From the NCBI GenBank assembly GCA_016926915.1, contig JAFGNR010000326.1, positions 1 to 33,127 on the forward strand: 33,127 nucleotides of DNA, in the 5' to 3' direction. Both the position numbers and the translations under genes were made by a program. The notes beneath the pieces are model-generated. The model searched no databases, was not told the origin of the DNA, and saw nothing but the letters and a program-made list of their open reading frames with translations. Each line of letters begins with the position of its first letter. Positions within the stretch are counted from its first letter, which is position 1. This DNA comes from Anaerolineae bacterium (lineage in GTDB: Bacteria > Chloroflexota > Anaerolineae > B4-G1 > SLSP01). This document shows, one piece after another, positions 2,706 to 30,886 of this stretch.

Positions 2706-3953
2706 TTACGCGGCCGGGGCTTCGGAAGGGGGCGTAGATACCGGGAGAGCGCTGGCCTTTTCGGCGCGTTTCCGCAGCGTCAGCGGCACGACGATGACGC
2801 CGGTGAGCGCCAGCAACGCCAACGCCGCCAGTAGGATAACGCCCACCACGGCCATTGCCGCCTGGAACTGGGGCATCTCCGAAGCCAGCAGGTCCACCGA
2901 CACGCTAGAGGCAGAGATCAGGCCGACGGCGCTGAGATTCCACAGCCCGTGAAAAACGATGGCGACGCCATAGAGCAGCGGCAGCATCCACCGACGGCGT
3001 TTCTGCCAGAAGTAGCCCCATCCCAGACCGGTCAACCCGCAGGTGAGGATATGCATGGCCGTAGCCGGAACACGGGATCCCACGGCCGCGAGCCACTCCG
3101 AAGTTGCTCCCAGACCCATCCCCCCGTTGAGCACACCCTCGACGAGAGCAAAGCCCAATCCGCAGGCCGCCCCCCAGAGAAAGGCAGTCAGCAAGCCAGG
3201 ACGGCGCCAATAGCCAATAACGGCGACCAGCAATGTCTTGACCAGTTCCTCGATAATGGGCGTGGCGACCGCCAGGGTCAGGGCCAACACCCCAATCACC
3301 ACCGGCGACCCCAATACCGCTATCAGATCCTCGGTGGCGGCCATACCCGGCGGCATCTGGGACCAGCGCTCAAACTCCATCAGAAGCCGGTCGACCTCTG
3401 CCTGACCGCCGGGCACGAGTAGGGCCACGGCGATTACGACGACAATGCTGATGAAAAGCGCAACGACCTCGAAGGTAAAAGCCAGCGTGGTAGACGATGC
3501 GCCGGCTGTGGCCATCACGACCACCTGCCTAACGCTGAGGCGGCTTGCACGTCCGGCCGCCAGCAGGCTCCAGGAGAAGAGCGCCAGCGCCGGCAGCACC
3601 ATCGCCAGCACGTGAAAGAAGGCAAACACCGGACGGCTTTGCACCGCCTCCGGGAGCAAGAAGCCGCCCCCCACAATCAGGACCCAGATAGCGACCAGCG
3701 CGGGCCAGGCCTTGGGGAAAAGCAACTCGGCCGGCCGGCCCTGCACCGCGCGAATCCCCATCACGACCCAGACGATGGAAAATCCCAGTCCCAGGAGTCC
3801 CACCATGGCTATCAGGACCGCAGCCAGGGCAGCATCCACCGCCGGTATGAGGGGAAGGATGAACCCGAATAGGAGCAGGCCCGCACTCAACAGGCCGATA
3901 AGGGCGGCGCCAACAATTGCCGCTAACCAGGCTACACGTTTCGTTTGCGTCAT
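2706..3953 (-). CDS. PrsW-family intramembrane metalloprotease-like membrane protein
   Basis: Multi-TM protein with TPIIEELVKTL (EE-K motif), GLGFALVEGVLNG, HILTCGLTGLGWGYFWQKR and YGVAIVFHGLWN, as in PrsW-like proteases. Confidence 0.8.
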   Translation of the reverse strand: MTQTKRVAWLAAIVGAALIGLLSAGLLLFGFILPLIPAVDAALAAVLIAMVGLLGLGFSIVWVVMGIRAVQGRPAELLFPKAWPALVAIWVLIVGGGFLLPEAVQSRPVFAFFHVLAMVLPALALFSWSLLAAGRASRLSVRQVVVMATAGASSTTLAFTFEVVALFISIVVVIAVALLVPGGQAEVDRLLMEFERWSQMPPGMAATEDLIAVLGSPVVIGVLALTLAVATPIIEELVKTLLVAVIGYWRRPGLLTAFLWGAACGLGFALVEGVLNGGMGLGATSEWLAAVGSRVPATAMHILTCGLTGLGWGYFWQKRRRWMLPLLYGVAIVFHGLWNLSAVGLISASSVSVDLLASEMPQFQAAMAVVGVILLAALALLALTGVIVVPLTLRKRAEKASALPVSTPPSEAPAA

Positions 3954-4017
3954 GTTCTATACCTCCGTCCCAGCATCACACCCTGCGTGATTATCGACAG
4001 AATCCGGCAAAAGAAAA

Positions 4018-4041
4018 GGGGATAGAGTCTCCTCTATCCCC
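4018..4041 (-). terminator. Rho-independent terminator (serves the minus-strand gene 4063..5325)
   Basis: Perfect 10-bp stem GGGGATAGAG-TCTC-CTCTATCCCC; on the minus strand it is followed by TTTTCTTTT. Confidence 0.8.
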
Positions 4042-4062
4042 CCTGTTTTCTCACGGAGCCGC

Positions 4063-5325
4063 TCAGTTTTCGACGATGGTAACGCTTTCGACGCGGTCGC
4101 GAGTCACGCCCTCGACGCCCACCGCCGTCTGCACCAATTGCTCGATGACTTCCTTCCCTTCGATGACCTCGCCGATCAAGGGGAAGTTGCCGCTCAGGCT
4201 GGCGGCATCGGCGCCCAGGGAGAAGAAGAACTGCCCGTTGGGCACCATGCCGAACAGACCGGCGCGGTCGAAGGTACCCTGCACCTCGCCGCCGCAGTAA
4301 TACCCCGGCGCGCCATTACCGGTGTTCGTGGGATCCCCGGCTACCGCCGCGAACCCCTCTTGCACGAAGAAAAACTCGGTGTTGTCGTACCAGCCTTCAC
4401 GCGCCAGGAAGAGGAAATTGTTCACGTGGGTCGGCGCCACGTTCGGCAGCAGCGATACGACGATATCCCCCTTGGTTGTGGTCAACGTCACCACATATTC
4501 GGCATCGCTATCAACGGTCATGGCCGGGATCTCGGCGTATTGTCGCTCGCGCAAGGCCAGAAGAGAATCCAGCACCGGCAAGAACGCCTCCAACCCCTGG
4601 TAAGAAAGCCCGTATTGCTGGGTAGGGTAAAGAAGTCCCTCGAAGACAAACGAAGGCGTGCCCGGCAGCTGGATGTCTTGCGACTCCTGCAGCTGCGCCT
4701 CAATCTTCGGCACATGCACATCCTCGTCCAACTCGCGATCGAATTGCTCCACATCCAGCCCCAACTCTTCGGCGTAATCGCTCATTTTGACTCGCGCTTC
4801 GTCCACCGAAAGCGCATTCCACTCGTCGACGCGCCCGAAGAGCAAATTGTACATTTCCCAGAATTTACCCTGCGCGCCGGCAGCTTCAACAGTTTCGGCT
4901 GTGACCATGGCCTTGTCGTGAAAGCTCAACGGGAAGTGACGGTAGACCAGGCGAATATTGGGATGGGCTTTCAAGAACTCGTCGAGGATCGGCACCACGG
5001 CAGAGCAGCCGGGGCACTGAAAATCGGCGTACTCGATCAACGTGATTTCTGCCTCGCCATCGCCGGCGCTCTTGACCCAATCGTCCTCGGTGACGGGACT
5101 CACGGGCAGGGTCATGTCGACGACTTCGCAAATTCCCGGTTCCACCGGCAATTCATCATTGGCGGTCGCCGTCTCTTCCGTGGGCGCCGCAACCGTCTCC
5201 TCGGTGGGGATTTCGGTCGGCTCCGGGCTCGGTTCCGGTGTGGCGGGTTCCGTCGGACTACAGGCACTCAACAGTAAAACAACGGCCATCAAGATGGCCG
5301 TAAATGCCACGAACTTCCGTTTCAT
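4063..5325 (-). CDS. Lipoprotein fusing a DsbA-like thioredoxin domain to a cyclophilin-type PPIase-like domain
   Basis: Likely start at ATG 5325 (MKRKFVAFTAILMAVVLLLSACSP, lipobox). EYADFQCPGCSAVVP...YRHFPLSFHDKA (DsbA/DSBA_4-like with CxxC), then TTKGDIVVSLLPNVAPTHVNNFLFLAREGWYDNTEFF...GDPTNTGNGAPGY...GLFGMVPNGQFFFSLG (cyclophilin-like). Confidence 0.85.
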   Translation of the reverse strand: MKRKFVAFTAILMAVVLLLSACSPTEPATPEPSPEPTEIPTEETVAAPTEETATANDELPVEPGICEVVDMTLPVSPVTEDDWVKSAGDGEAEITLIEYADFQCPGCSAVVPILDEFLKAHPNIRLVYRHFPLSFHDKAMVTAETVEAAGAQGKFWEMYNLLFGRVDEWNALSVDEARVKMSDYAEELGLDVEQFDRELDEDVHVPKIEAQLQESQDIQLPGTPSFVFEGLLYPTQQYGLSYQGLEAFLPVLDSLLALRERQYAEIPAMTVDSDAEYVVTLTTTKGDIVVSLLPNVAPTHVNNFLFLAREGWYDNTEFFFVQEGFAAVAGDPTNTGNGAPGYYCGGEVQGTFDRAGLFGMVPNGQFFFSLGADAASLSGNFPLIGEVIEGKEVIEQLVQTAVGVEGVTRDRVESVTIVEN

Positions 5326-5439
5326 GTGTATACTCCTCATGACCAATTTAGCAGAATTATACCACCAAAATTCTTCGAAACAAGCCTTTGCCGGTGAAAA
5401 CCAGGCGCTTATCCTTCTCCATTCCGCTACAAAAGGCTC

Positions 5440-10308: not shown

Positions 10309-10392
10309 TCACCCACACACCAAACACCGCTTATAGTAACAACTACTCTTTACTGCGACGTGTTACCGTACAAATGTGCCGGAGGAATTGGG

Positions 10393-10650
10393 ATGCACGC
10401 CGGAATCTACCTGTTGTTGGCGATTATGATGGTCGCCAGCGCCATTGCCGCACTGTTCTCCAAAACCCTGACGCGCGCTGTCATCGCTCTGGGGGCGAGT
10501 AGCGCCAGTTTGGCCACGCTACTCTTCTTCCTCAAGGCCCCCTACGCCGGGGCCTTTGAGTTAAGTGTAGGGACCGGTCTCATCAGCGTCCTCCTTATCA
10601 TTGGACTGAGTTTGACGCGCACCTCACGGGAGTATGCCGATGCGGAGTGA
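10393..10650 (+). CDS. MbhD/DUF4040-like small membrane subunit
   Basis: ATG at 10393 with GGAGG upstream at 10381. MHAGIYLLLAIMMVASAIAALFSKTLTRAVIALGASSASLATLLFFLKAPYAGAFELSVGTGLISVLLIIGLSL resembles MbhD/MrpB-type TM pairs. Confidence 0.7.
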   Translation: MHAGIYLLLAIMMVASAIAALFSKTLTRAVIALGASSASLATLLFFLKAPYAGAFELSVGTGLISVLLIIGLSLTRTSREYADAE

Positions 10651-10906
10651 ACGATTGATTTGGGCAGGTCTCATTATCGCTGCCCTTTTTGTGGGGTGGC
10701 TGATAGGGCACGGCTTCAGCACTGACGAAGACACTGAGATGCCGCAACCCAGCAGTTTCCGCAGTTGGTTCTGGGAAGATCGCACACTGGATCTATTGGT
10801 GCAGGTTGGCTTGATCTTCGCGGGCGCATTGGGCGTCGCCGCGCTGCTGCCGGGACAAAGCGAACTGCACACCCAACACGAGGATCCGCATGTCCCCCTG
10901 GCTTGA
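10634..10906 (+). CDS. MbhE-like small membrane subunit
   Basis: Overlaps the previous CDS; RTLDLLVQVGLIFAGALGVAALL resembles the 'R..D.l.ev.v...a.lgv' segment of MbhE/MrpB; operon context. Confidence 0.6.
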   Translation: MPMRSERLIWAGLIIAALFVGWLIGHGFSTDEDTEMPQPSSFRSWFWEDRTLDLLVQVGLIFAGALGVAALLPGQSELHTQHEDPHVPLA

Positions 10907-11201
10907 CATCGCCAACACCACGCTAAGCCTGATCCTCTTCATTACTGGCCTGTTGGGATTGCTGACACAGCGCCAGTTGATCAAGCAGGTGATCGGTCTC
11001 AAAGTCATGCTTCAAGGGGTAACATTGGGATTGATTCACGCGGGCCAGGTCAGCGGCAACCCGGATTTCGCCCAGTCTATGGTGGTCTCCGCGCTCATTG
11101 TAGAGGCGGTCTTGATCGCCGTAGCGCTGGCTTTGATTGTCAACATCTTCCGTCACTATCCCTCCGGGGATGTAGACGACCTACAAAGACTGGAGGGCTA
11201 G
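10890..11201 (+). CDS. NuoK/MrpC (MbhG)-like subunit
   Basis: Three-TM protein: LSLILFITGLLGLLTQRQLIKQVIGLKVMLQGVTLGLI...AQSMVVSALIVEAVLIAVALALIVNIF; overlaps the preceding gene. Confidence 0.8.
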   Translation: MSPWLDIANTTLSLILFITGLLGLLTQRQLIKQVIGLKVMLQGVTLGLIHAGQVSGNPDFAQSMVVSALIVEAVLIAVALALIVNIFRHYPSGDVDDLQRLEG

Positions 11202-11207
11202 ACTGAT

Positions 11208-12650
11208 ATGGCACAGACTGCTTTGTTAGCCGGATTGCTGGGGCTGCCGGTAGCCGTAGCGATCTGGCTAGTTTTGACCGAACACGGCCCACCGGGCCAG
11301 GTCCGGTGGGTGGTGAGTTTGACGGCAGGTGCGACAGCAATATGCGCACTGAGCCTTCTTCCGTTTGCCGGACAAATCCCGCCTCCCACCCTGACGTGGT
11401 TGCCAACCGCCGGGGCCATGCGCCTGAGCCTGGCAACCACCAACCTTCTCGCAACAACGGCGACCGCAAGTGCGGCCGTCGTTGTTTATCTGGTAGGAGA
11501 CACTAAACAGGTCGAGTCTCCTGGCCCGCGAAGCGGCGCGCTGACGCTCCTGGCGCTGGCTGCGGGGAATCTGACCTTCCTCTCGGGGCATTTCCTTTTG
11601 CGGTACGTGGCGTTAGAAATTGTGGGATTATGCATTGCCCTTGCTCCCTTGCTCGAACGGCGAGGACCCGCTCCGTTTAGCCGTGCTGGCTGGGTTTATT
11701 TCTTGTTGCGTTTTGGCGACGCCGGGCTACTTGCTGCTATTCTGCTGACAGGGGCACAGAGCGGCGTCTATGAAATCCAGGGCGCATTGGAGGCCGTCCA
11801 TACCCTCTCCCCCCAGACCCAGACCTGGATCAGCCTGGGGTTCTTCCTGGCGGTCGCTGTCAAAGTAGGAATGTGGCCCTTCCATGCCTGGATCGACAGT
11901 GGGCGCCATCTATCCCGGAGTACGTACACCTGGCTCTACGCTACGCTCATGCCCAATCTGGGTCTCTACCTGCTCTACAAGGTGGCGGGGCTACCGCCCA
12001 CCGCGCCGCCGTTACGCAATGGCTTGCTCGTCTTCGGCGTGGGGGCGGGCGCGTTGCCCCTCCTCTCCATACTCATCCAACCGCTGAGCAGGAAGCGTCT
12101 GCCGGCGCGAAGCGCCGCCCTATTGGGCGCCATACTCTGGTGTCTGACTTTGCTAGGCAATGACAAATTGGCCTGGTGGGGTCTGCTGGCGCTGAGTGTT
12201 ATCCGCCTGCCGCTTTACCTCAGCCTATCCCATGAAGAAGAACCTACGGAGAACCGCCAGACCCTAACCCGGTGGGTAGGCTGGAATCAGAGGGGAGGCG
12301 CGCTCGTGCAACGACTCCATGCCGGCCTGGAATTGGGCATCCTCAAGCGGGGGCCAGAGGCGCTCGCCAGAGGTCTGGCCAAGATGGCCGAATTTCTTCA
12401 CACGAGGGTAGAGGTAAAGATTCTCGAACAGGGCGTGGATGCATCGGCTGCTAAGATCGTCGATTCAGCGAAATTGCTCCATGTGGCGGTGGAACAGCGA
12501 AGTCTAGAGGCGCTATTGCACATCGCCGTGAACAAGATCTTGCAGCTCAGCCACCGGCTACGCGATTGGCACACCGGCCGCCTGCGCGCCAATCTCCTGT
12601 GGGTGGTGCTCTGCCTGATTCTGGCGATTGGCCTGGCCCTTGCTTATTGA
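11208..12650 (+). CDS. Divergent NuoL/antiporter-like subunit with amphipathic C-terminal extension
   Basis: RYVALEIVGLCIAL (TM5-like Glu), FFLAVAVKVGMWPFHAWIDSGRHLSRSTYTWLYATLMPNLGLYLLYKVAGL (TM7/8-like), C-terminal helical segment ending RDWHTGRLRANLLWVVLCLILAIGLALAY, as in NuoL lateral-helix/TM16. Confidence 0.75.
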   Translation: MAQTALLAGLLGLPVAVAIWLVLTEHGPPGQVRWVVSLTAGATAICALSLLPFAGQIPPPTLTWLPTAGAMRLSLATTNLLATTATASAAVVVYLVGDTKQVESPGPRSGALTLLALAAGNLTFLSGHFLLRYVALEIVGLCIALAPLLERRGPAPFSRAGWVYFLLRFGDAGLLAAILLTGAQSGVYEIQGALEAVHTLSPQTQTWISLGFFLAVAVKVGMWPFHAWIDSGRHLSRSTYTWLYATLMPNLGLYLLYKVAGLPPTAPPLRNGLLVFGVGAGALPLLSILIQPLSRKRLPARSAALLGAILWCLTLLGNDKLAWWGLLALSVIRLPLYLSLSHEEEPTENRQTLTRWVGWNQRGGALVQRLHAGLELGILKRGPEALARGLAKMAEFLHTRVEVKILEQGVDASAAKIVDSAKLLHVAVEQRSLEALLHIAVNKILQLSHRLRDWHTGRLRANLLWVVLCLILAIGLALAY

Positions 12651-12713
12651 TGCCGGGAGGAAAGAGGCGTCGCTGTCTTATCTATGGACAACTAAACACA
12701 AAGGAGACTATCT

Positions 12714-14186
12714 ATGACCAGGGACATAGTCTTTCTCGAGCTTATTTTGGGGTTCCCTTTAGCGACCGCGCTGATTCTGGCGTTGTTGCGCGGGCGTGGA
12801 TCGCGGTCCGCCGGGTGGATTGCCGGTGGCAGCGCTCTCGTAACGCTGGGTTCGGCCTTTGCCCTCCTGCCGGCGCTCTACGGCGGCAGCGAACCTGCCG
12901 TGGCCTTTTCCTGGATCCCGGCGGCGAATATCCAGCTGCGCCTGCACGTGGATTGGCTGACGCTCCCCTTTTTGGTGACGGAAGCGGCGGTCACGTTGGC
13001 CGCCATTGTCTACAGCTGGGGCTACCACAAAGTTGACGCGCGCAGCGGCTATTTCTACGCGCTCTTGTTGCTCTTCGGCGTGGGTATGTCCGGCACCACA
13101 CTGGCAGATGATCTTTTCCTCTTCTACATCTTTTGGGAGTTGATGCTCATCGCCTCCTGTGTGCTCATCCTGATCTGGGGTGAGGGGGAACGACGCGGCA
13201 TCGTAGCGCTCAAATACTTCATCTTCACGCACATAGGCTCCCTGATGGTGCTGGTGGGGTTGCTGATGCTCTACGGAGCGACAGGAAGCGACAGTCTCGC
13301 GATGATGCGCGCCGGAGGCTGGTCCCTGGAACCAGCGTTGCTGAACACCGTGTTGCTCCTCTTCTTCATCGGTTTTTCCGTTAAGATGGCCATCTTCCCC
13401 GTGCACCTCTGGCTACCCGACACACACACGGTCGCCCCCATGCCCGTCACCATTATGCTGGCTGCGGCTATGTTAAGCATGGGAACCTACGGTATACTGC
13501 GCTTCCCTTTCAGCCTCTTCAGCATCGAGCACATCGCGCCCTTCGCCCTGCCCCTGATGATCGCCGGGCTGGTATCGGAAATCTACGGAGCGCTGATGGC
13601 CCTGGCCGAGCAAGATATCAAGCGCATTATCGCCTACTCCAGCGTGAGCCAGATGGGATACATCCTCTTTGGCCTGGGAACATTGACGCGCGCGGGAATC
13701 GAGGGCGCAACGCTGCACGTCATCTACCATGCCATCGTCAAGGCGCTGCTCTTCATGGTCACAGGATTGGTCATTCGCGCTACGGGTACGCGCAAGATCG
13801 AGGCGCTCGGCGGGTTAGGCAAGGCGTTGCCCGGCGTAGCGGTCTGTACCGCCATCGGCGCGCTGGGTATCGCTGGCATGCCCCCGCTAGGCATATTCAA
13901 CAGCGAATGGATGATCTTTGCCGGCGGTTTCGAGACCGCGCGCATCGTTCCATCGATGCTTACCCTCTTCGGATCCTTGCTTACTGTTGTCTACGCGCTG
14001 CGCTTCTTTGGCCGTATCTTCTTTGGGGAGCAGCCTCAGAACCTCAAGATACGCTCCCTACCCCGTGCGATGCTATACACTACCGTGGCAATAACCGTGC
14101 TACTCATCGTCGAAGGACTCTTCCCTGCGCCGCTTTTCGACTGGGTAGCCCAAGAGTTAACGCTGCTCCTGGGGGGCGGGCTTTGA
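12714..14186 (+). CDS. NuoM/MrpD-like proton-translocating antiporter-type subunit
   Basis: FYIFWELMLIASC, VKMAIFPVHLWLPDTHTVAPMPVTIMLA, EQDIKRIIAYSSVSQMGYILFG, LHVIYHAIVKALLFMVTG, GMPPLGIFNSEW: all canonical motifs. Confidence 0.9.
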   Translation: MTRDIVFLELILGFPLATALILALLRGRGSRSAGWIAGGSALVTLGSAFALLPALYGGSEPAVAFSWIPAANIQLRLHVDWLTLPFLVTEAAVTLAAIVYSWGYHKVDARSGYFYALLLLFGVGMSGTTLADDLFLFYIFWELMLIASCVLILIWGEGERRGIVALKYFIFTHIGSLMVLVGLLMLYGATGSDSLAMMRAGGWSLEPALLNTVLLLFFIGFSVKMAIFPVHLWLPDTHTVAPMPVTIMLAAAMLSMGTYGILRFPFSLFSIEHIAPFALPLMIAGLVSEIYGALMALAEQDIKRIIAYSSVSQMGYILFGLGTLTRAGIEGATLHVIYHAIVKALLFMVTGLVIRATGTRKIEALGGLGKALPGVAVCTAIGALGIAGMPPLGIFNSEWMIFAGGFETARIVPSMLTLFGSLLTVVYALRFFGRIFFGEQPQNLKIRSLPRAMLYTTVAITVLLIVEGLFPAPLFDWVAQELTLLLGGGL

Positions 14187-15655
14187 TGGCTGAGAGTACC
14201 TGGGTCATCCTCCCCCTGCTCTGGTTGTTTGGTGGGGCCTTTGCCCTGGGACTTCTCGGACGGTTGGGGCGTATGCGCAACACATTCCTGGCGGGCGCGA
14301 CCGCCTTGATTTGCACGGGCGGCCTGCTGTGGCTGATCCCCCTCTTCGCCCTGACCCAATCGGCATGGGTGAATCAAACTGCCCTTCCCAGCTGGTCCGG
14401 CACGGCTTCCGGCGGTATCCAGCTGCGGGCGACCCCCAGCGCCCTGGTAATGACCGCCCTCGCATTGGGGCTGGGGCTACTCATCGCCATCTATTCAGGG
14501 CAATACTTAGCGCGGGATCGTCGCTACGCGACCGCGTACCCCCTGTTGCTCCTGATGTTGACCGGGCTCCTGGGCATGCTGTTGACCACCGACCTCTTCA
14601 ATCTTTACCTCTTCTGCGAACTGCTGAGCATCGCCGCCTACGTACTGGTAGCCTTCCGCCGTCACACCGACACCTCCATTGAAGCAGGTTTCAAATACCT
14701 CATAATGAGCAGTGTCGCCACGCTCATCATGCTGTTAGGAATCTCCTGGATTTACCGGGAGGTGGGCAACGTGACCCTGCCAATTATAGAAGGGCAAGAT
14801 AGCCTATGGCTTCGCCTGGGGATCGCTTGTTTCCTGGTAGGGCTGGCCCTCAAGAGTGGCGTGGCGCCGTTGCATACCTGGTTACCCGACGCCTACGGGC
14901 GTGCTCCTAGCAGTGTCAGCGCGCTGCTGGCCAGTGTTATCTCCAAAAGCACCCTGCTCGTCTTGCTCAGAGTTACGTTGGGGCTAGGCTTGCCGGCGCC
15001 CATACTCGGAATAGTATTCATCTTCTTCTCCTTCTTGAACATGACCCTGGGCAACGCCCTGGCGTTGATACAACGCAACATCAAACGGCTCCTGGCTTAC
15101 TCCTCCATCGCCCAAACTGGCTACATTCTGTTCGCTTTAGGGATAGGATTGCGTTATGACATACCAGCGGCGCTCAACGCCGGCTTCTTCCTGCTCTTGG
15201 TTCACGCTTTGCTCAAAGCATTGGCCTTCTTGAGCAAGGGCGTTTGCCACTTCTACTGCGGCGCGACACAGGTGAAGGATCTACAAGGGACGGCGCATCA
15301 GTTCCCCCTGGTAGCCCTTACCTTCAGCGTCTCCCTGGCGGGGTTAGCTGGGATCCCGCCGCTGGCGGGGTTCGCGGCCAAATGGTTTATCCTGGCCGCA
15401 AGTCTGACAGCGCAAGATACGTTGGCTTACGTGGGCGTGGCGATCTTTCTACTGAACAGCGTCTTGGCCCTGGGCTATTACCTCCCGCTTATCGTACAGA
15501 TCTTCACCCCGCCGCCAATCGGGGACACCGCGCGCCAGCGCGTTTCGCTGTGGATAAGCATCCCGCTAATACTGCTGGGGGCGCTGACACTGTCCGCCGG
15601 TTTGCAATCCACACCCTGGCTGGACATTGCAACCTGGCTGAACTTTTTTGAGTAG
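14186..15655 (+). CDS. NuoN/MrpD-like antiporter-type subunit
   Basis: ATG at 14186 overlaps the TGA of the previous gene (TGATG). LFNLYLFCELLSIAAYVLVAFR, LALKSGVAPLHTWLPDAYGRAPSSVSALLASVISK, QRNIKRLLAYSSIAQTGYILFA, HALLKALAFLSKG, GIPPLAGFAAKW. The ORF-track start at 13907 overlaps the upstream gene and is not credible. Confidence 0.9.
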   Translation: MAESTWVILPLLWLFGGAFALGLLGRLGRMRNTFLAGATALICTGGLLWLIPLFALTQSAWVNQTALPSWSGTASGGIQLRATPSALVMTALALGLGLLIAIYSGQYLARDRRYATAYPLLLLMLTGLLGMLLTTDLFNLYLFCELLSIAAYVLVAFRRHTDTSIEAGFKYLIMSSVATLIMLLGISWIYREVGNVTLPIIEGQDSLWLRLGIACFLVGLALKSGVAPLHTWLPDAYGRAPSSVSALLASVISKSTLLVLLRVTLGLGLPAPILGIVFIFFSFLNMTLGNALALIQRNIKRLLAYSSIAQTGYILFALGIGLRYDIPAALNAGFFLLLVHALLKALAFLSKGVCHFYCGATQVKDLQGTAHQFPLVALTFSVSLAGLAGIPPLAGFAAKWFILAASLTAQDTLAYVGVAIFLLNSVLALGYYLPLIVQIFTPPPIGDTARQRVSLWISIPLILLGALTLSAGLQSTPWLDIATWLNFFE

Positions 15656-15679
15656 AAACAGAATATCGAGGAGCAAGAT

Positions 15680-16018
15680 ATGATACAACAAATCCTATTA
15701 AGTCCTCCGGGAGCCTTTGTGTTTTTCCTGACGTTGACCTATGGCATATACAGATTAGGCGGGAGCATTGCTGCGCCGGGCGAACCACATGAGGACAAGC
15801 ATCTCTCCTATACCGGGGGGGAAAAGGTGCCGCCGCCGACAACCGGCCAACTCTCCTACCACGCCTTCTTCCGACTGGCATTACTCTTCGCTATCTTGCA
15901 CGTGGCAACGCTGGTGCTCGCCATGCTACCCAGAGACGTCGTCTCTCATCGAGTCGCATCACTCTATACCATAGGCATTGCCATTAGCGCCCTCGTGTTA
16001 GCAAAGGAAGAAGCCTAA
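15680..16018 (+). CDS. NuoA/MbhI-like small membrane subunit
   Basis: N-terminal TM, EDKHLSYTGGEKVPPP loop resembling NuoA-type 'K..pY.cGe', two further TM segments; position directly before the NuoB-like gene. Confidence 0.65.
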   Translation: MIQQILLSPPGAFVFFLTLTYGIYRLGGSIAAPGEPHEDKHLSYTGGEKVPPPTTGQLSYHAFFRLALLFAILHVATLVLAMLPRDVVSHRVASLYTIGIAISALVLAKEEA

Positions 16019-16019
16019 G

Positions 16020-16463
16020 ATGCAGCAATGGCTTACTAAACAGGTTCATAACATCGTGAGTTGGGCGCGCCGCAAATCCCCCTGGATTCTGCACTTCAAC
16101 AGCGGGGGTTGCAACGGTTGTGATATCGAGATACTCGATCTCCTGACACCCCGCTATGACGTGGAACGCCTGGGTATCCTCAAGGAGGCATCGCCGCGCC
16201 ACGCCGATATACTCATCTGTACCGGCCCGGTGACACGCCAATCACGGGATCGCCTGCGGCAAATTTATGAGCAGATACCCGAACCCAAATGGGTGGTGGC
16301 CGTAGGGAGCTGTAGTTGCTCTGGCGGCGTTTTTCAGGGGGGGCACAACATCTTGGGTGGTGTAGAAAACGTGCTGCCCGTCGATATCTACATCCCCGGA
16401 TGTCCTTGCCGCCCTGAGGCCATCATTGACGGACTCGCCCAGTTACTGGAGACTATCACATGA
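16020..16463 (+). CDS. NuoB-like / group-4 [NiFe]-hydrogenase small subunit
   Basis: HFNSGGCNGCDIEILDLLTPRYDVERLGILKEASPRHADILICTGPVTRQSRDRLRQIYEQIPEPKWVVAVGSCSCSGGVFQGG...GGVENVLPVDIYIPGCPCRPEAIIDGL; CxxC plus two further conserved cluster cysteines. Confidence 0.92.
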   Translation: MQQWLTKQVHNIVSWARRKSPWILHFNSGGCNGCDIEILDLLTPRYDVERLGILKEASPRHADILICTGPVTRQSRDRLRQIYEQIPEPKWVVAVGSCSCSGGVFQGGHNILGGVENVLPVDIYIPGCPCRPEAIIDGLAQLLETIT

Positions 16464-16909
16464 GCAATGTGAAATTCAACCTAGAAGCATTACTAGCCGC
16501 GTGGCAAAGGGCCTTTCCTAAGCTCAAGTTGACAATGGAAACGCTGCCTCTGGACGAAGTCGTTGTGGCCTTTCCACCTGAGTATCTCGTCCCGGCAGTC
16601 TGCGTTCTCACAGAGCAATTCAACGTGAGACACCTTTCCACTATCACCGGCGACGACACAGGCGAGGGGATTGCGTTACTCTATCATTTCTGGAGCGGAT
16701 CAGGTCTCACCTTACGCACGCGCCTGCCCTACGATGCGCTGCACATCCCCTCGCTTACCGGGATAATTCCGGGCGCCGTGTTCTACGAGCGCGAGGCGGC
16801 GGAGATGCTGGGCGTTATCTTCGAAGGTCATCCCGCCCCCCAACCGTTGCTCATGCCGGATGACTGGGAGGGCGAGCACCCCTTACGCGCTTCTGCAGAA
16901 GATAGATGA
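16460..16909 (+). CDS. NuoC-like (30-kDa) subunit
   Basis: Overlaps the previous stop (ATGA). LTEQFNVRHLSTITGDDTGEGIALLYHFWSGSGLTLRTRLPYDALHIPSLTGIIPGAVFYEREAAEMLGVIFEGHPAPQPLLMPDDWEGEHPLR is a typical NuoC/HycE N-domain pattern. Confidence 0.9.
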   Translation: MSNVKFNLEALLAAWQRAFPKLKLTMETLPLDEVVVAFPPEYLVPAVCVLTEQFNVRHLSTITGDDTGEGIALLYHFWSGSGLTLRTRLPYDALHIPSLTGIIPGAVFYEREAAEMLGVIFEGHPAPQPLLMPDDWEGEHPLRASAEDR

Positions 16910-17006
16910 ACTATTGCGCGCTACCTGATATATCGACAGCACAGAATACCGGTCCTTGCTGCCAGAAGAGCCGATGAACCATGAATCATATAGACAAGGG
17001 AGAAAC

Positions 17007-18089
17007 ATGAATCGAATAACGGTGCCCATTGGCCCGCAACACCCGCTGCTCAAGGAACCCATGGCTTTCCAGCTAACGGTGGAGGGGGAAAGCGTCATCG
17101 AAAGCACCCTGCGCCTGGGCTACGTGCATCGCGGCATTGAGCGGCTCTGTCAGGAACGCACTTACGTGCAAAATATCCACCTTGTTGAGCGTGTGTGCGG
17201 TATCTGTTCGCATGTCCACACGACGACCTATTGCCAAGGCGTCGAAGCGTTGTTGGGCTTGGAAGTTCCGCTGCGCGGTCTATATCTACGTACCCTGCTC
17301 TGTGAATTGGAACGAATACATAGCCATCTACTCTGGCTCGGCGTGCTGGCGCGTAACATCGGCTTTGACACCATTTTCATGTATGCCTGGCGCGATCGTG
17401 AGATCGTTCTGGACATCATGGAAGATCTCTCAGGCGGGCGGGTCTCCCACGCGGTCAATGTCATTGGCGGTGTCCGCATCGATCTGACAGAAGAACACCG
17501 TGACACGATCCTGTCCCAGCTGGATCTATTGGACAAGCAGGTTGCCCACCTATTGGGCATTGTGGAACACGAGCGATCCTTGAAAGCACGCACCCAGAAT
17601 ATCGGGCATCTATCCTTAGAAGATGTGCGCCGTTACTGCGTCGTGGGGCCGGTAGCACGGGCTTCCGGATTGAACGTAGACCTACGCCGCGACCGACCGC
17701 CGCCCCCCTATGACCGGCTTACTTTCACAGTGCCTGTCCATGAAGATGGAGACGTATGGGCACGCACCTGGGTGCGTATGCGAGAGACAGTCGAAAGCGT
17801 GCGTCTCTGTCGCCAGATCTTGACCCTATTACCCGATGGCCCAGTCGCTGCACGCGCCCGTCGTCGTGTGCCTGCTGGCGAAGTCATCAGCCGCTCCGAG
17901 GCGCCCCGGGGTGAAGTCATCTACTACATCCGTAGCGACGGCAGCGATATACCCGCCCGTGTCAAAATCCGCACCCCCACGCTGACCAGTCTGATCACGC
18001 TGCCCACACAACTTGAAGGAGTCAATATGGCCGATGTCTCCGTGGTGCTTGCCGGCGTCGATCTCTGTATTGCCTGCGCGGACCGATGA
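17007..18089 (+). CDS. Group-4 [NiFe]-hydrogenase large subunit (NuoD-like)
   Basis: Likely start MNRITVPIGPQHPLLKEP at 17007 (GGGAGAAAC upstream). GYVHRGIERL, RVCGICSHVHT (L1 CxxC), CELERIHSHLLWLGVLARNIGFDT, GGRVSHAVNVIGGVR, C-terminal GVDLCIACADR* (L2 CxxC). Confidence 0.92.
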   Translation: MNRITVPIGPQHPLLKEPMAFQLTVEGESVIESTLRLGYVHRGIERLCQERTYVQNIHLVERVCGICSHVHTTTYCQGVEALLGLEVPLRGLYLRTLLCELERIHSHLLWLGVLARNIGFDTIFMYAWRDREIVLDIMEDLSGGRVSHAVNVIGGVRIDLTEEHRDTILSQLDLLDKQVAHLLGIVEHERSLKARTQNIGHLSLEDVRRYCVVGPVARASGLNVDLRRDRPPPPYDRLTFTVPVHEDGDVWARTWVRMRETVESVRLCRQILTLLPDGPVAARARRRVPAGEVISRSEAPRGEVIYYIRSDGSDIPARVKIRTPTLTSLITLPTQLEGVNMADVSVVLAGVDLCIACADR

Positions 18090-18153
18090 GTACTACGAAT
18101 GAATCAAACTGAACACACGCTGACTATGGCAAGCCAAACCATCAGGAGTTCCT

Positions 18154-19074
18154 ATGGCGCTAATTAACCTGTTGTTCTTTCCCGGCTTTACCTTTCTCTT
18201 CATGTGCGCGCTCTTCTTCGAGTGGCTGGACCGGCGCATCATCGCCCGCTTTCAAGAGCGTGTGGGACCACCCTGGTTCCAGCCGCTGGCCGACTTCATC
18301 AAACTGCTGGCTAAGGAGGATATCGTGCCGAGCGGCGCGCACGCCAAAGCGGCGGCCCTACTCCCCATGTTTTCCCTGACCGCTGTACTGACGGCGGGAC
18401 TCTACGTGCCGGTCGGCAACGTAGTCACAGCTTCCTTTGAGGGCGATCTCATCGTCGTGCTGTTCCTGCTCAGTTTACCCGCGTTGGGCTACTTCCTGGC
18501 GGGATGGACTTCGGTAGGCGTTTACAGTCTGATCGGTGGACATCGCTCGCTGTTGCAATATTTCTCCTACGAGGTGCCTTTCCTAATGGCGGTGGCTAGT
18601 CCGGCGATCCTCAGCGGGTCCTGGCGCATCGCGTCTATCGCCGCATACCAATCCCAGACAACGTGGGGAGCGTTGATGCAACCCTTGGGATTCATCCTGG
18701 CTATCATCGGACTCATCGGCAAGCTCAAACGCGATCCCCTGGACATCCCCAAGGCCAAGTCCGAAGTCGTCGCCGGGTCGCTAACTGATTTCAGCGGACG
18801 GAAGATCGCGCTCTGGCACCTCAGCATTTACATCCAAACCGTGGTCGGCATATTTTTGCTGGTCAATCTTTTCCTGGGGGGAAGCAGTCACCAGAGTTTG
18901 TTCGTCGCATTGCCGATCTTCGGATTGAAGGCGCTGGGAATCTTGATCCTTCTTTCCATGATTAGCGTGCTCTATGCCCGGTTACGCATTGATCAGTTGG
19001 CCAACCTCGGCTGGCGTGTGCTGGCCCCGCTAGCGCTCATACAATTACTGGTCACGATCTGGAGTGGAGGATAA
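18154..19074 (+). CDS. NuoH/EchB/MbhM-like membrane subunit
   Basis: EWLDRRIIARFQERVGPPWFQPLADFIKLLAKEDIVPSGA, GHRSLLQYFSYEVPFLMAVASP, KRDPLDIPKAKSEVVAGSLTDFSGRKIALWHL. Confidence 0.92.
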   Translation: MALINLLFFPGFTFLFMCALFFEWLDRRIIARFQERVGPPWFQPLADFIKLLAKEDIVPSGAHAKAAALLPMFSLTAVLTAGLYVPVGNVVTASFEGDLIVVLFLLSLPALGYFLAGWTSVGVYSLIGGHRSLLQYFSYEVPFLMAVASPAILSGSWRIASIAAYQSQTTWGALMQPLGFILAIIGLIGKLKRDPLDIPKAKSEVVAGSLTDFSGRKIALWHLSIYIQTVVGIFLLVNLFLGGSSHQSLFVALPIFGLKALGILILLSMISVLYARLRIDQLANLGWRVLAPLALIQLLVTIWSGG

Positions 19075-19077
19075 CGT

Positions 19078-19458
19078 ATGAGATGCCTTGAATCGATTGC
19101 CTACCTCTTCCCCCGCATTTGGAGGACATTGGCGCGTGGCCCGCAGACGGTAGCCTACCCCCTCAGCCCGATCGATCTGCCCGCAGGCTACCGGGGGCGG
19201 GTACACATCCGCGCGGAGCTATGTCGAGGCTGCGGTCTCTGCGTGCGCGACTGCCCCGCTTTCGGGCTGGAACTGGAACGAGAGGACCGCGAAACCTTTC
19301 GCCTAATCTACCACCCTGATCGCTGCGCCTATTGTGGGCAATGCGAGGAAAGTTGTAACTTCGGAGCAATCTATCTCGACAATGACTTCGTGCACGGCAC
19401 TTTTAATCGCGAAGCATTGATCGAGGTATTGGTGGATCGGAAAAGAACCAACAAATAG
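19078..19458 (+). CDS. NuoI-like 2x[4Fe-4S] ferredoxin-type subunit
   Basis: Two cluster motifs: CRGCGLCVRDCPAFGLEL and CAYCGQCEESCNFGAI; last gene of the operon. Confidence 0.92.
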   Translation: MRCLESIAYLFPRIWRTLARGPQTVAYPLSPIDLPAGYRGRVHIRAELCRGCGLCVRDCPAFGLELEREDRETFRLIYHPDRCAYCGQCEESCNFGAIYLDNDFVHGTFNREALIEVLVDRKRTNK

Positions 19459-27146: not shown

Positions 27147-27977
27147 CTAAGGGCCTTGCACGCTTAGCTCGCCCTCAGGCGACCACGCGCGCCGCACAAC
27201 CTCTCCCTCTACCCCCAACAGCCCCCACTCAACGCCATTGACAACCAACGTAAATGCGCCCCCATTCCCGGTTTCCACGAGACTCGATGTGCTGGCGACA
27301 GCTTCCAGAGTTTGACCAGGGACAGCGATCCCCTGGAACACGACCTCATCATCGGCGACCAGGCGAACCCAGACGTGCTGCTGCGGCGCCAGACGCACGG
27401 TCACGGTACCATCCGTGGCAGGAACAAAATCAGCTGATGGCGACACCTCTACAACCGGCGCCTCGGTCGCCGGCGAAACAACTTCCTGGGTAGGAACCGG
27501 TGTCGCCAAGGACACATCGAGATCGGCAAAGAACAACAGGTAAAGATACCCGCCGCCCGCAATCAGGGCGAAGACCAGCATCGCCCCCAACAAGACCTGG
27601 AGTAGGCCCCGGGGAACCCCCGGGGCCGTCAGACGCTCTTCTTCCTCGGTTGGCGGCGGCGCGAAGACCGTAGGACGTTCTACAGACTGGCCACGCGCCT
27701 CGTCCACGACCTGGTGAACACGGGGCTGCATAGGATGGCCCGCAAGTTCCGCTTCATACCTTGCCAGGGCCTCTTCACTGGGCAAGCCCAGAAAGCGCGC
27801 ATAATTCCGCAGAAAGCCTCTAGCCTGGATTTCCCCTGGCAACGCGGCATAATCGCCCATCTCAAGCGCCTGCAAATAACGCCGGCGAATGCGCAGAGCC
27901 GATTCCACCTCATCCAGGGAGAGTTTGCGCACCTCGCGCGCTCTACGGAGCCACAGGCCCAACCCTTCCGCCATCAA
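27147..27977 (-). CDS. RodZ-like protein: N-terminal HTH (HTH_25), TM, C-terminal DUF4115-like domain
   Basis: GLWLRRAREVRKLSLDEVESALRIRRRYLQALEMGDYAALPGEIQARGFLRNYARFLGL; single TM (LLGAMLVFALIAGGGYLYLLFF); C-terminal beta-rich domain. Confidence 0.85.
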   Translation of the reverse strand: MMAEGLGLWLRRAREVRKLSLDEVESALRIRRRYLQALEMGDYAALPGEIQARGFLRNYARFLGLPSEEALARYEAELAGHPMQPRVHQVVDEARGQSVERPTVFAPPPTEEEERLTAPGVPRGLLQVLLGAMLVFALIAGGGYLYLLFFADLDVSLATPVPTQEVVSPATEAPVVEVSPSADFVPATDGTVTVRLAPQQHVWVRLVADDEVVFQGIAVPGQTLEAVASTSSLVETGNGGAFTLVVNGVEWGLLGVEGEVVRRAWSPEGELSVQGP

Positions 27978-28423
27978 GCCTCCGCCTCAACCACCAGACG
28001 AACCTGCGCAGCAACGTTGCCAGCCAGCTTGAGATCGACCAAATGAATACCAATGTCGCGAATGGGATGTTCGAGAATGATTTGGCGCCTATCGAACGGC
28101 GCCCCCAACACCTTGGAAATAGCCTGAGCAATATCCTTGTTGGTAATCGAGCCATAGAGGCGCCCCGTCTCGCCGGCTTTCACCTGGAAGACCAACGGCA
28201 CGACCCGCAACTTCTCCGCAACGCGTTCCGACTCGGCGCGCAACCGCTCTTCACGTTTTTGCGAATCCATCACGTGGCGTTCTGCGGCTGTAATCGCCTC
28301 CTTGGTCGCGGGAATCGCCAGACCTCTGGGAAGCAGATAATTCCGTGCATACCCCTCGGATACGGCTTTGACCTCGTTGGCCTTGCCAACGCCTTTTACG
28401 TCGCGCGTCAAGACTACTTTCAC
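27974..28423 (-). CDS. rplI: Large ribosomal subunit protein bL9
   Basis: MKVVLTRDVKGVGKANEVKAVSEGYARNYLLPRGLAIPAT...LYGSITNKDIAQAI...LEHPIRDIGIHLVDLKLAGNVAAQVRLVVEAEA; ATGA overlap with the RodZ-like gene. Confidence 0.96.
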   Translation of the reverse strand: MKVVLTRDVKGVGKANEVKAVSEGYARNYLLPRGLAIPATKEAITAAERHVMDSQKREERLRAESERVAEKLRVVPLVFQVKAGETGRLYGSITNKDIAQAISKVLGAPFDRRQIILEHPIRDIGIHLVDLKLAGNVAAQVRLVVEAEA

Positions 28424-28556: not shown

Positions 28557-29108
28557 TCAACGGCTGCCCAACAAGCGAACCTGCAGCGCAATAAGCAGGC
28601 GCGTGATCCGCTGCATTAGCGTAGGATTGGAAATCATCTGCAGGCCGGATTGGTAGGCAGCGTAACCGGCCTGGCGCTGTCCAGAACGGAACAAGGCCAC
28701 GCCCAGGGTCAACAAGGTTTCCCCCTGGCGCTGCCGGTCATTCAATTCCTCGAAGATCAAACTGGCCGTTTGCCAGGCCGGAATTGCATCTTCGCGACGT
28801 CCCATAGCGGCATAGACGCCGCCCAGATTACCCCAGACCTGCGCCTCACGGGATTTATCTTCTAGGCGTGTGAACACGCGTTTGGCCTCGTTCAGCGACT
28901 CCAACGCTTCATCCCAACGTGATTGCTTACGCCGGATCAGGCCGATGTTGTTCAACATTTCTCCGGCCTCGATTTCGCGCCCCTCCTCGGCGAAATGCTC
29001 TAGCGCCTCGCCGAAACGCAAAGCGGCCTCGTCGTACAATCCCTCCTGAAACAGTCGCAGCCCTTCTTTTTGCAGTTCGTCAGCATTCGGCATGATCTCA
29101 CACTCCAT
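28557..29108 (-). CDS. TPR-repeat protein
   Basis: Repeats GLRLFQEGLYDEAALRFGEALEHFAE, AGEMLNNIGLIRRKQSRWDEALESLNEAKRVF, AQVWGNLGGVYAAMGRREDAIPAWQTASLIF, GETLLTLGVALFRSGQRQAGYAAYQSGL. Confidence 0.85.
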   Translation of the reverse strand: MECEIMPNADELQKEGLRLFQEGLYDEAALRFGEALEHFAEEGREIEAGEMLNNIGLIRRKQSRWDEALESLNEAKRVFTRLEDKSREAQVWGNLGGVYAAMGRREDAIPAWQTASLIFEELNDRQRQGETLLTLGVALFRSGQRQAGYAAYQSGLQMISNPTLMQRITRLLIALQVRLLGSR

Positions 29109-29779
29109 CAGTAGGTGATTTCAAGAAGCCCTTCGGCGATTGTTCGCAAGGCGCCGGCCGGCATCTCGGCCAGTTTCATTGCCAGCTCCAGGTAGCTCAT
29201 GTTGATAGGACGCACAACAAATTCGCGCAGCTCGGCAGGTAACTCTGCAAATCTCGTAAATTGCGCCTTCAATGCATGCCATTCCCCCACCGGACTTTCT
29301 TGATCCAGGAAGGCATCCAACGGCACGCCCAATGCCCGCGCCACCAGTTCCAGCTCCGCCATGGGGACTGGTTTCTCTCCATACTCGTAGGCCGATATCG
29401 TTGATGTTGAATGTTCGACAAGATCCGCCAGATCACTCTGCGTACGCCCCGCATCGTGGCGCGCTTGCCGCAAACGGGCGCCGATGATCCGGTGGCGCAA
29501 CGGCAGGAACATCTCGGGATCGGGGAGAGCAGGACGATCATCCAGCTCGGCGCGCTCGTCGCGTAAGGCTTGCAGCGATACATCCAGATAACTGCAAAGC
29601 AACTCCAGTTCGGGAAGCGAGATATCACCTGAACCATCCTCATACCCCGCAAACCGGCGGCCGGAAACTCCCAAAACTTCCGCGCAGGCCGAGCGCGATG
29701 CACGAACCCGCTCACGCGCCCGCCGCAGCAGCACGCCCAGAACCCGCTTGCGCAATTCAATCACTTGCTGATTCGGCAT
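29108..29779 (-). CDS. XRE-family regulator with two tandem HTH domains
   Basis: HTH1: LLRRARERVRASRSACAEVLGVSGRRFAGYEDGSGDISLPELELLCSYLDV; HTH2: IGARLRQARHDAGRTQSDLADLVEHSTSTISAYEYGEKPVPMAELELVARALGVPLDAFL. Stop overlaps the start of the TPR gene. Confidence 0.85.
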   Translation of the reverse strand: MPNQQVIELRKRVLGVLLRRARERVRASRSACAEVLGVSGRRFAGYEDGSGDISLPELELLCSYLDVSLQALRDERAELDDRPALPDPEMFLPLRHRIIGARLRQARHDAGRTQSDLADLVEHSTSTISAYEYGEKPVPMAELELVARALGVPLDAFLDQESPVGEWHALKAQFTRFAELPAELREFVVRPINMSYLELAMKLAEMPAGALRTIAEGLLEITY

Positions 29780-30022
29780 ATTTCGCCTCCCCCGACACTC
29801 CAGATTCCCTAATCCGGCTCACGAGAACTTGAGAACACCAAACGGACCAGGGTATTAAATTGCACCCCCCAACCCTTCTCACATGTAGAACTGACTTATT
29901 TGCATTATAGCATATCCCAACATCGGAGCAATAGTGTGGTTAGATTAAGGTTCAGCATTTCCCATGCTTCCCACACACCCCATCCGCAACCAGGAGCGTG
30001 GTCCAATACCAACAGAGCGAAG

Positions 30023-30458
30023 TTTTCCACAGACGCTGCAGACACAAATCACCCGGATAGAGAGGGTCGCATGCCCCTAGATATAGGATGACACACGGGG
30101 TTTCCGTCACACACAACCAGCCAAGAAATATCCCACCTGTGGAAAACTGGCGTTTTTTGGTGGAAAACCATGCCATTCTGGGGAAAACTTAAGTTTCCTT
30201 ATACCAGTCTCGTAGAGTATACCCGCCGTCGCCCTGAGATTTATACCATCGCCGCTGACACTCAGCAGGAAACCTCGGGAGCTTCTCCCCAAGTTTTCCC
30301 CACCCATACACCCAGCAAAACGCGTACTTGTATGAACCAAACCGTTGGTTGGACACGAGATATAGGGAAGCGAAGCCGGATTTTCCCCGTTATCCACTGT
30401 TCTACTACCACGACTATCTATCCCAATTCTATACAGGGAAAAGGGATTACTTTCCACA
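30023..30458. promoter_or_regulatory. Candidate oriC: cluster of DnaA-box-like 9-mers
   Basis: TTTTCCACA 30023-30031(+) and 30138-30146(-) match TTWTNCACA exactly. One mismatch: TTTTCCACC 30159-30167(-), TTTTCCCCA 30179-30187(-), TTTTCCCCA 30294-30302(+), TTATCCACT 30390-30398(+), CTTTCCACA 30450-30458(+). All in a long intergenic region (29780-30622). Confidence 0.75.
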
Positions 30459-30549
30459 CACAGCTGCCTGAAATCTAAACCCAGTATGCATCTATGCGCC
30501 GCTTCGCTTCGGGAGTAAGATAAGACTTGGTCGCCTTTTGAAGCATGAC

Positions 30550-30577
30550 TGGACAAAAATGAGAAATCAAGTATACT
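30550..30577 (+). promoter_or_regulatory. Predicted promoter of rpsT (TGGACA-16-TATACT)
   Basis: TGGACA at 30550-30555, 16-nt spacer, TATACT at 30572-30577, about 45 nt upstream of rpsT. Confidence 0.55.
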
Positions 30578-30622
30578 TTTGGCTCATAAAGATACCTGTG
30601 AGTTGAGAAGTTGGAGGATTAG

Positions 30623-30886
30623 GTGGCCAATACTAAGTCTGCTCAAAAAGCTGTTCGCAGTTCTTACCGCAAGTGGTTGCGGAATCGTTATGTCAAAGGC
30701 AAAATGCGTAGCGCCGTCAAAGCCGTGCGCCATGCCGTCGCGGCCGGCGATGCAGCGCAAGCTCGAACATTGATGCCCCGCGCATACAAGGAACTGGATA
30801 AGGCGGCTCGCAAGAATGTCATCCATAAGAACAAAGCGGCGCGTTTGAAGTCGCGCTTGATGCGCCAGGTAAACACGCTCTCTTAG
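30623..30886 (+). CDS. rpsT: Small ribosomal subunit protein bS20 (GTG start)
   Basis: MANTKSAQKAVRSSYRKWLRNRYVKGKMRSAVKAVRHAVAAGDAAQARTLMPRAYKELDKAARKNVIHKNKAARLKSRLMRQVN; GGAGGATTAG upstream of GTG. Confidence 0.95.
   Translation: MANTKSAQKAVRSSYRKWLRNRYVKGKMRSAVKAVRHAVAAGDAAQARTLMPRAYKELDKAARKNVIHKNKAARLKSRLMRQVNTLS

Follow-up and report, generated by a model that had tools for sequence, protein, structure and literature searches.

In Escherichia coli, oriC is separated from dnaA. The gene dnaA is the default indicator gene of origin-finding software (PMC10225481). For origins with a basal unwinding system (BUS), as in Bacillus subtilis, the published rule allows one DnaA box up to 2 mismatches to TTATCCACA and another box up to 4, with a spacer of at most 16 bp, and the published minimum is at least three consecutive DnaA-trios (3'-NAN-5'); a BUS was reported in 85% of 2,070 predicted origins (PMC8287927). 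The BUS is described as broadly conserved (PMC8287927; PMC6669920). An open-access literature search returned no experimentally mapped oriC described for the class Anaerolineae.

The window analysed here is one entire contig (C265; 33,127 bp) of an uncultured Anaerolineae bacterium (Chloroflexota), the source genome of which is a 4.3-Mb draft in 460 contigs that is 88.7% complete. A sequence-only reading had proposed a candidate oriC in this window, and the proposal is supported by the skew minimum, the box density, parS, the trios and the AT-rich stretch. The cluster of DnaA boxes, the skew minimum, the sole parS, the single match of a profile and of a box triple, the recurrence in relatives and a closed related genome together indicate that the stretch is the chromosomal oriC, with a core at about 30,020–30,460, away from dnaA and probably of the BUS type, which would work like that of B. 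subtilis. The probability of this reading was put at roughly 95%.

DnaA Boxes and Their Order in Related Genomes

The intergenic gap between an XRE gene and rpsT was measured as 843 bp (29780–30622), in agreement with the some 840 bp claimed earlier, and an Rfam search of the window gave no RNA inside it. Seven DnaA boxes with at most one mismatch to TTWTNCACA are located in 436 bp of this gap. The sequence-only reading had counted two exact boxes and at least five one-mismatch boxes on both strands, all of which were found: the exact boxes are at 30023 (+) and 30138 (−), and the one-mismatch boxes at 30159 (−), 30179 (−), 30294 (+), 30390 (+) and 30450 (+). The variant that was said to recur in both orientations is TTTTCCCCA, at 30179 (−) and 30294 (+). 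The array and its outer parts are as follows.

30023–30458, no strand: proposed core oriC, DnaA-box array (seven boxes with at most one mismatch; array kept in relatives; adjacent skew minimum)
30023–30031, + strand: outer DnaA box TTTTCCACA (most family origins have a + box −337 to −374 from the unwinding element)
30138–30187, − strand: three co-oriented DnaA boxes (30138, 30159 and 30179) with spacings of 21 and 20 bp (sole such triple in the genome; kept in relatives)
30283–30302, + strand: two weaker DnaA boxes, TTCTCCCCA and TTTTCCCCA (relatives commonly have a + box near −80)

With 21 such boxes in the remaining 32.7 kb of the window, 0.28 would be expected per 436 bp, and the Poisson probability of seven or more is about 2e-8 before correction for some 76 windows. 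Moreover, no other 600-bp stretch reached half the score of the cluster when 186 kb of the source genome was scored. Across the genome, exact TTWTNCACA boxes by themselves show no enrichment (97; reversed control, 110), and a pair of exact boxes at such close range is unremarkable. Hence, it is the seven-box array and its order that carry the argument.

The order recurring in relatives is a + box, the palindrome described below, three − boxes (spaced by 21 or 22 bp and then by 20 bp) and + boxes, and the array continues there with the tandem pair TTWTCCMCA/AATCCMC, the motif CTACTA..NACTA and, at a fixed offset, a peak in AT content. A scoring matrix built on five sequences recovered six more family members outside the training set, and in families f2 and f3 it also matched sites next to dnaA. 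At E ≤ 0.1, 245 of the 396 genomes of the class were matched by a class-wide profile of 71 positions, which was trained on 14 sequences, the window included. Exactly one match to this profile was found in the source genome, at the cluster (E 2e-11). The 48-bp pattern of the 21/20 triple also had a single match there (30139–30186); it matched once in each of 25 of the 48 genomes of the order, whereas the reversed control gave a single match in one genome. The box density in the rest of the genome, which had been proposed for comparison, is far lower than in the cluster, and the profile and the triple each match once in the whole assembly. A single such site per chromosome holds within the 88.7% of the genome covered by the assembly. 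Judged by sequence, box order and spacing are conserved across genera, and the architecture is class-wide. Even where an assembly is fragmented, the 48-bp pattern or the 71-position profile points to the origin and thereby makes coverage-based growth-rate estimates possible.

Putative Unwinding Element

The putative unwinding element consists of tandem boxes, trios and an AT-rich stretch.

30381–30398, + strand: tandem DnaA boxes TTTTCCCCG and TTATCCACT, predicted counterpart of B. subtilis boxes 6/7 (alignment; rule of PMC8287927)
30399–30419, + strand: DnaA-trio stretch GTT CTA CTA CCA CGA CTA TCT (alignment with relatives; leave-one-out profile score)
30418–30458, no strand: AT-rich stretch directly past the trios (62% AT), presumed to be the first duplex to melt (DUE)

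With 1 mismatch in TTATCCACT, 3 mismatches in TTTTCCCCG and a spacer of 0–3 bp, the tandem pair falls within the BUS box rule. The strand that DnaA would bind reads, from the second triplet, 3'-GAT GAT GGT GCT GAT-5'. The triplets GTT CTA CTA amount to three consecutive trios only with the box-adjacent GTT included; the middle adenine is missing from trios 3 and 4, and trio 5 is canonical. Four consecutive trios are present in relatives such as G015. The AT content at the same offset (+40 to +80) was 53–80% in all 15 aligned origins, and the window, at 62%, shares the peak position with its relatives. Because the window was among the 14 training sequences of the profile, a leave-one-out test was done, in which the unwinding element of the window scored 42.4 bits and the next-best site in the 474 kb scanned scored 4.6 bits.

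GC Skew Around the Array

The cumulative GC skew, which the sequence-only reading had named as a check, has its contig minimum at 30,510, some 50 bp off the cluster, with a sign change across the origin from −0.055 to +0.028. Such a flip might come from divergent gene orientation, with the boxes as a chance coincidence in AT-rich DNA, and the flanking genes are indeed divergent (XRE on the − strand, rpsT on the + strand). Since divergent genes could mimic a skew turn, the + and − strand genes were measured separately. The strand-separated values in the window were −0.034 and −0.063 in the left arm and +0.028 and +0.027 in the right arm, which is short, with 2.7 kb of contig to the right of the origin. 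In the relative G234, with a 77-kb contig that extends 63 kb to the right, the skew was −0.099/+0.038, the strand-separated values were −0.097/−0.110 on the left and +0.055/+0.016 on the right, and the global minimum was beside the array. G003 behaved as G234, and G002 in part only. The flip holds in three genomes with the strands separated and over 30–63 kb of mixed gene orientation, and the array keeps its order and spacing across genera, all of which argues against an orientation artefact; this explanation has almost no chance of being correct.

In nine of 11 family loci, of which the window is one, the distance between the local minimum (within 8 kb) and the unwinding element was 107–540 bp; the exceptions were G007 (1.5 kb) and G008 (array at the contig end). 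The lowest skew of the 124 kb examined in G016 (f2) is 56 kb away from the array, and the skew of the closed genome G265 was flat and uninformative. No clear skew minimum was seen in G222 at the XRE locus on the parS contig, and its profile match is on a different contig. Most of the relatives tested have the array at or near their own minima.

The closed relative G181 (4.13 Mb in one contig) has a profile match at 555,865. Sampled along this genome, the skew is below zero before 531 kb, on the whole positive from 551 kb, and back to negative at about 2.3–2.5 Mb. Three parS sites are found at 540–542 kb, 15 kb from the match, and dnaA is at 1.486 Mb, 0.93 Mb from it. The match is at the skew switch and dnaA is distant; hence, the profile identifies the skew origin, and the distance to dnaA can be large.

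Relation to dnaA and Neighbouring Genes

In the source genome, dnaA is on contig C119 (open frame 3950–5362) and the origin on C265, so the two are not adjacent. An origin at dnaA, as in most bacteria, with the cluster as a former or secondary origin, would agree with the presence of the same module directly downstream of dnaA in G012 (f2) and in G015 and G378 (f3), as well as in G261 and G282. However, the 69.7-kb dnaA contig of the source genome has no skew switch at dnaA and no match to the unwinding element, and in each of the 13 family genomes with both positions listed, dnaA and the array are on separate contigs. An origin at dnaA was therefore given a negligible probability. Around the 15 loci examined in the window's family (f1), no dnaA was found within the flank, which was usually about 1.5 kb. 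With dnaA on another contig, the unusual gene context is real, and the simplest reading is that the module left dnaA in the lineage of the window. Origin finding based on dnaA would mislead in this family.

Class-wide profile matches far from dnaA, or on another contig, were also observed in other families, for example in G043, G181, G111, G201 and G218. Such separation in several other Anaerolineae families suggests that it may be common in the class.

The neighbours of the origin are as follows.

27974–28423, − strand: rplI, ribosomal protein L9
28501–28516, no strand: parS TGTTTCACGTGAAACC, ParB-binding palindrome (sole exact copy in the 4.3-Mb assembly)
28557–29108, − strand: TPR protein gene (parS is between this gene and rplI)
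29108–29779, − strand: XRE-type protein with two helix-turn-helix domains (HTH_31, two stretches), directly left of the origin
30623–30886, + strand: rpsT, ribosomal protein S20, right neighbour

The sequence-only reading had described this context as uncommon, which is borne out by dnaA being on another contig. The conserved neighbour is the side with XRE, TPR, parS and rplI. The rpsT neighbour occurs in genera g1 and g11 only, and rpsT adjacency was rejected as a conserved feature. The array adjoins the XRE gene in 9 of 15 f1 loci (genera g1, g2, g3, g8 and g11), is 5 kb off on the other side of parS in genus g4, and is elsewhere in g5, g6 and g9. Adjacency to XRE as a family-wide rule was also discarded, as G004, G005, G008, G222 and G254 carry the module elsewhere. 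For XRE relatives at 35–45% identity, no unwinding element was found in the stretches examined. The XRE protein is a candidate binder of the origin or of the palindrome. Its C-terminal tail, SYLELAMKLA..PAGALR.IAE.LLEIT, is strongly conserved.

The distance from parS to the first DnaA box is 1.5 kb, as had been claimed. Exactly one exact parS was found in 20 of 24 family genomes and none in the other 4, and its place between the TPR gene and rplI was kept in all six family members examined. Farther to the left in the window, a run of ORFs at 10360–19458 resembles an NADH dehydrogenase/hydrogenase-type membrane complex (nuo/mnh-like, named from translations alone).

Palindrome Shared With dnaA Promoters

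Two copies of a palindrome are present in the array, and an exact AGATATAGG is inside both (30079 and 30358).

30074–30089, no strand: palindromic element CCCCTAGATATAGGAT (family consensus CCCCTAGANNTAGGGG, 16 bp), the top-scoring site of the window at 19.3 bits
30353–30368, no strand: second, weaker copy ACACGAGATATAGGGA at 11.5 bits

In a set of 33 origins, the density of CCC...GGG palindromes was 8.6 times that of the flanks; 22 were counted, compared with 1.6 in shuffles, nested matches being counted more than once. A matrix of the origin copies was applied to 7.9 kb upstream of 17 dnaA genes, where it gave 9 sites (8 genes), compared with 0.21 expected from other intergenic DNA. The f1 dnaA promoters have two DnaA boxes, mostly 12 bp apart, and then the palindrome; in the source genome (locus L025), the boxes are at C119:3689 and 3701 and the palindrome at C119:3717–3732. 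At one mismatch, the palindrome was rejected as an origin-specific element; loose matches are found genome-wide, below the control rate, and only strong matches are informative.

The presence of CCCCTAGANNTAGGGG in the origin and in many dnaA promoters suggests one candidate protein, an initiation regulator, which would bind at both places; this is a natural interpretation of the shared element. The palindrome thus offers a direct handle on the putative regulator. A wider proposal, held tentatively and at slightly less than even odds, is that Anaerolineae origins are a conserved module of outer box, palindrome, 21/20-bp box triple and unwinding element, moved as a unit from dnaA in some lineages, and that an undescribed regulator binds CCCCTAGANNTAGGGG in the origin and, behind the pair of DnaA boxes, in the dnaA promoter and couples initiation to the supply of DnaA.

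DnaA boxes occur at promoters too, as the two boxes 12 bp apart in the source dnaA promoter illustrate, and the array sits between two divergent genes. It might then be a DnaA-titration or regulatory site (datA/DARS-like, or a DnaA-controlled XRE or rpsT promoter) and not an origin. However, the dnaA promoter is without the triple array and the unwinding element, whereas trios, an AT-rich stretch, the skew minimum and the only parS go with the array, which relatives retain whatever the right-hand neighbour. A titration or regulatory site is thus very improbable.

Proposed Mechanism

As a chromosomal oriC, the locus may be expected to work by analogy with B. subtilis and other species in DnaA binding, unwinding, helicase loading and ParB action. 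DnaA would occupy the outer box, the co-oriented triple and the inner boxes. A DnaA filament would extend from the tandem boxes (30381–30398) onto the trio strand (30399–30419) and open the AT-rich DNA to the right (30418–30458), where the helicase would be loaded and from which two forks would depart. ParB would load at parS, 1.5 kb away, and separate the new origins.

Comparison With Known Origins

The element is of an ordinary kind (oriC, probably of the BUS type) in an unusual, well-supported place, with one possibly new regulatory site. Its outer box, triple, unwinding element and AT peak have the same order as in the sister-family origins G012, G015 and G378, in which the module is directly downstream of dnaA, whereas that of the window adjoins an XRE gene. 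As in E. coli, oriC is apart from dnaA, but the neighbours and the box arrangement are different; the usual neighbours in the window's family are parS and the XRE/TPR pair.

Like the B. subtilis BUS (PMC8287927), the element has a tandem pair of DnaA boxes followed, after a short spacer, by CTA-type trios and then AT-rich DNA, and in both the 3'-GAT-5' trio is the most frequent and the nearest to the boxes. Unlike in B. subtilis, the trios follow GAT GAT NNT NNT GAT, several of them lacking the middle adenine; the element is also remote from dnaA, and the fixed 21/20-bp box triple precedes it.
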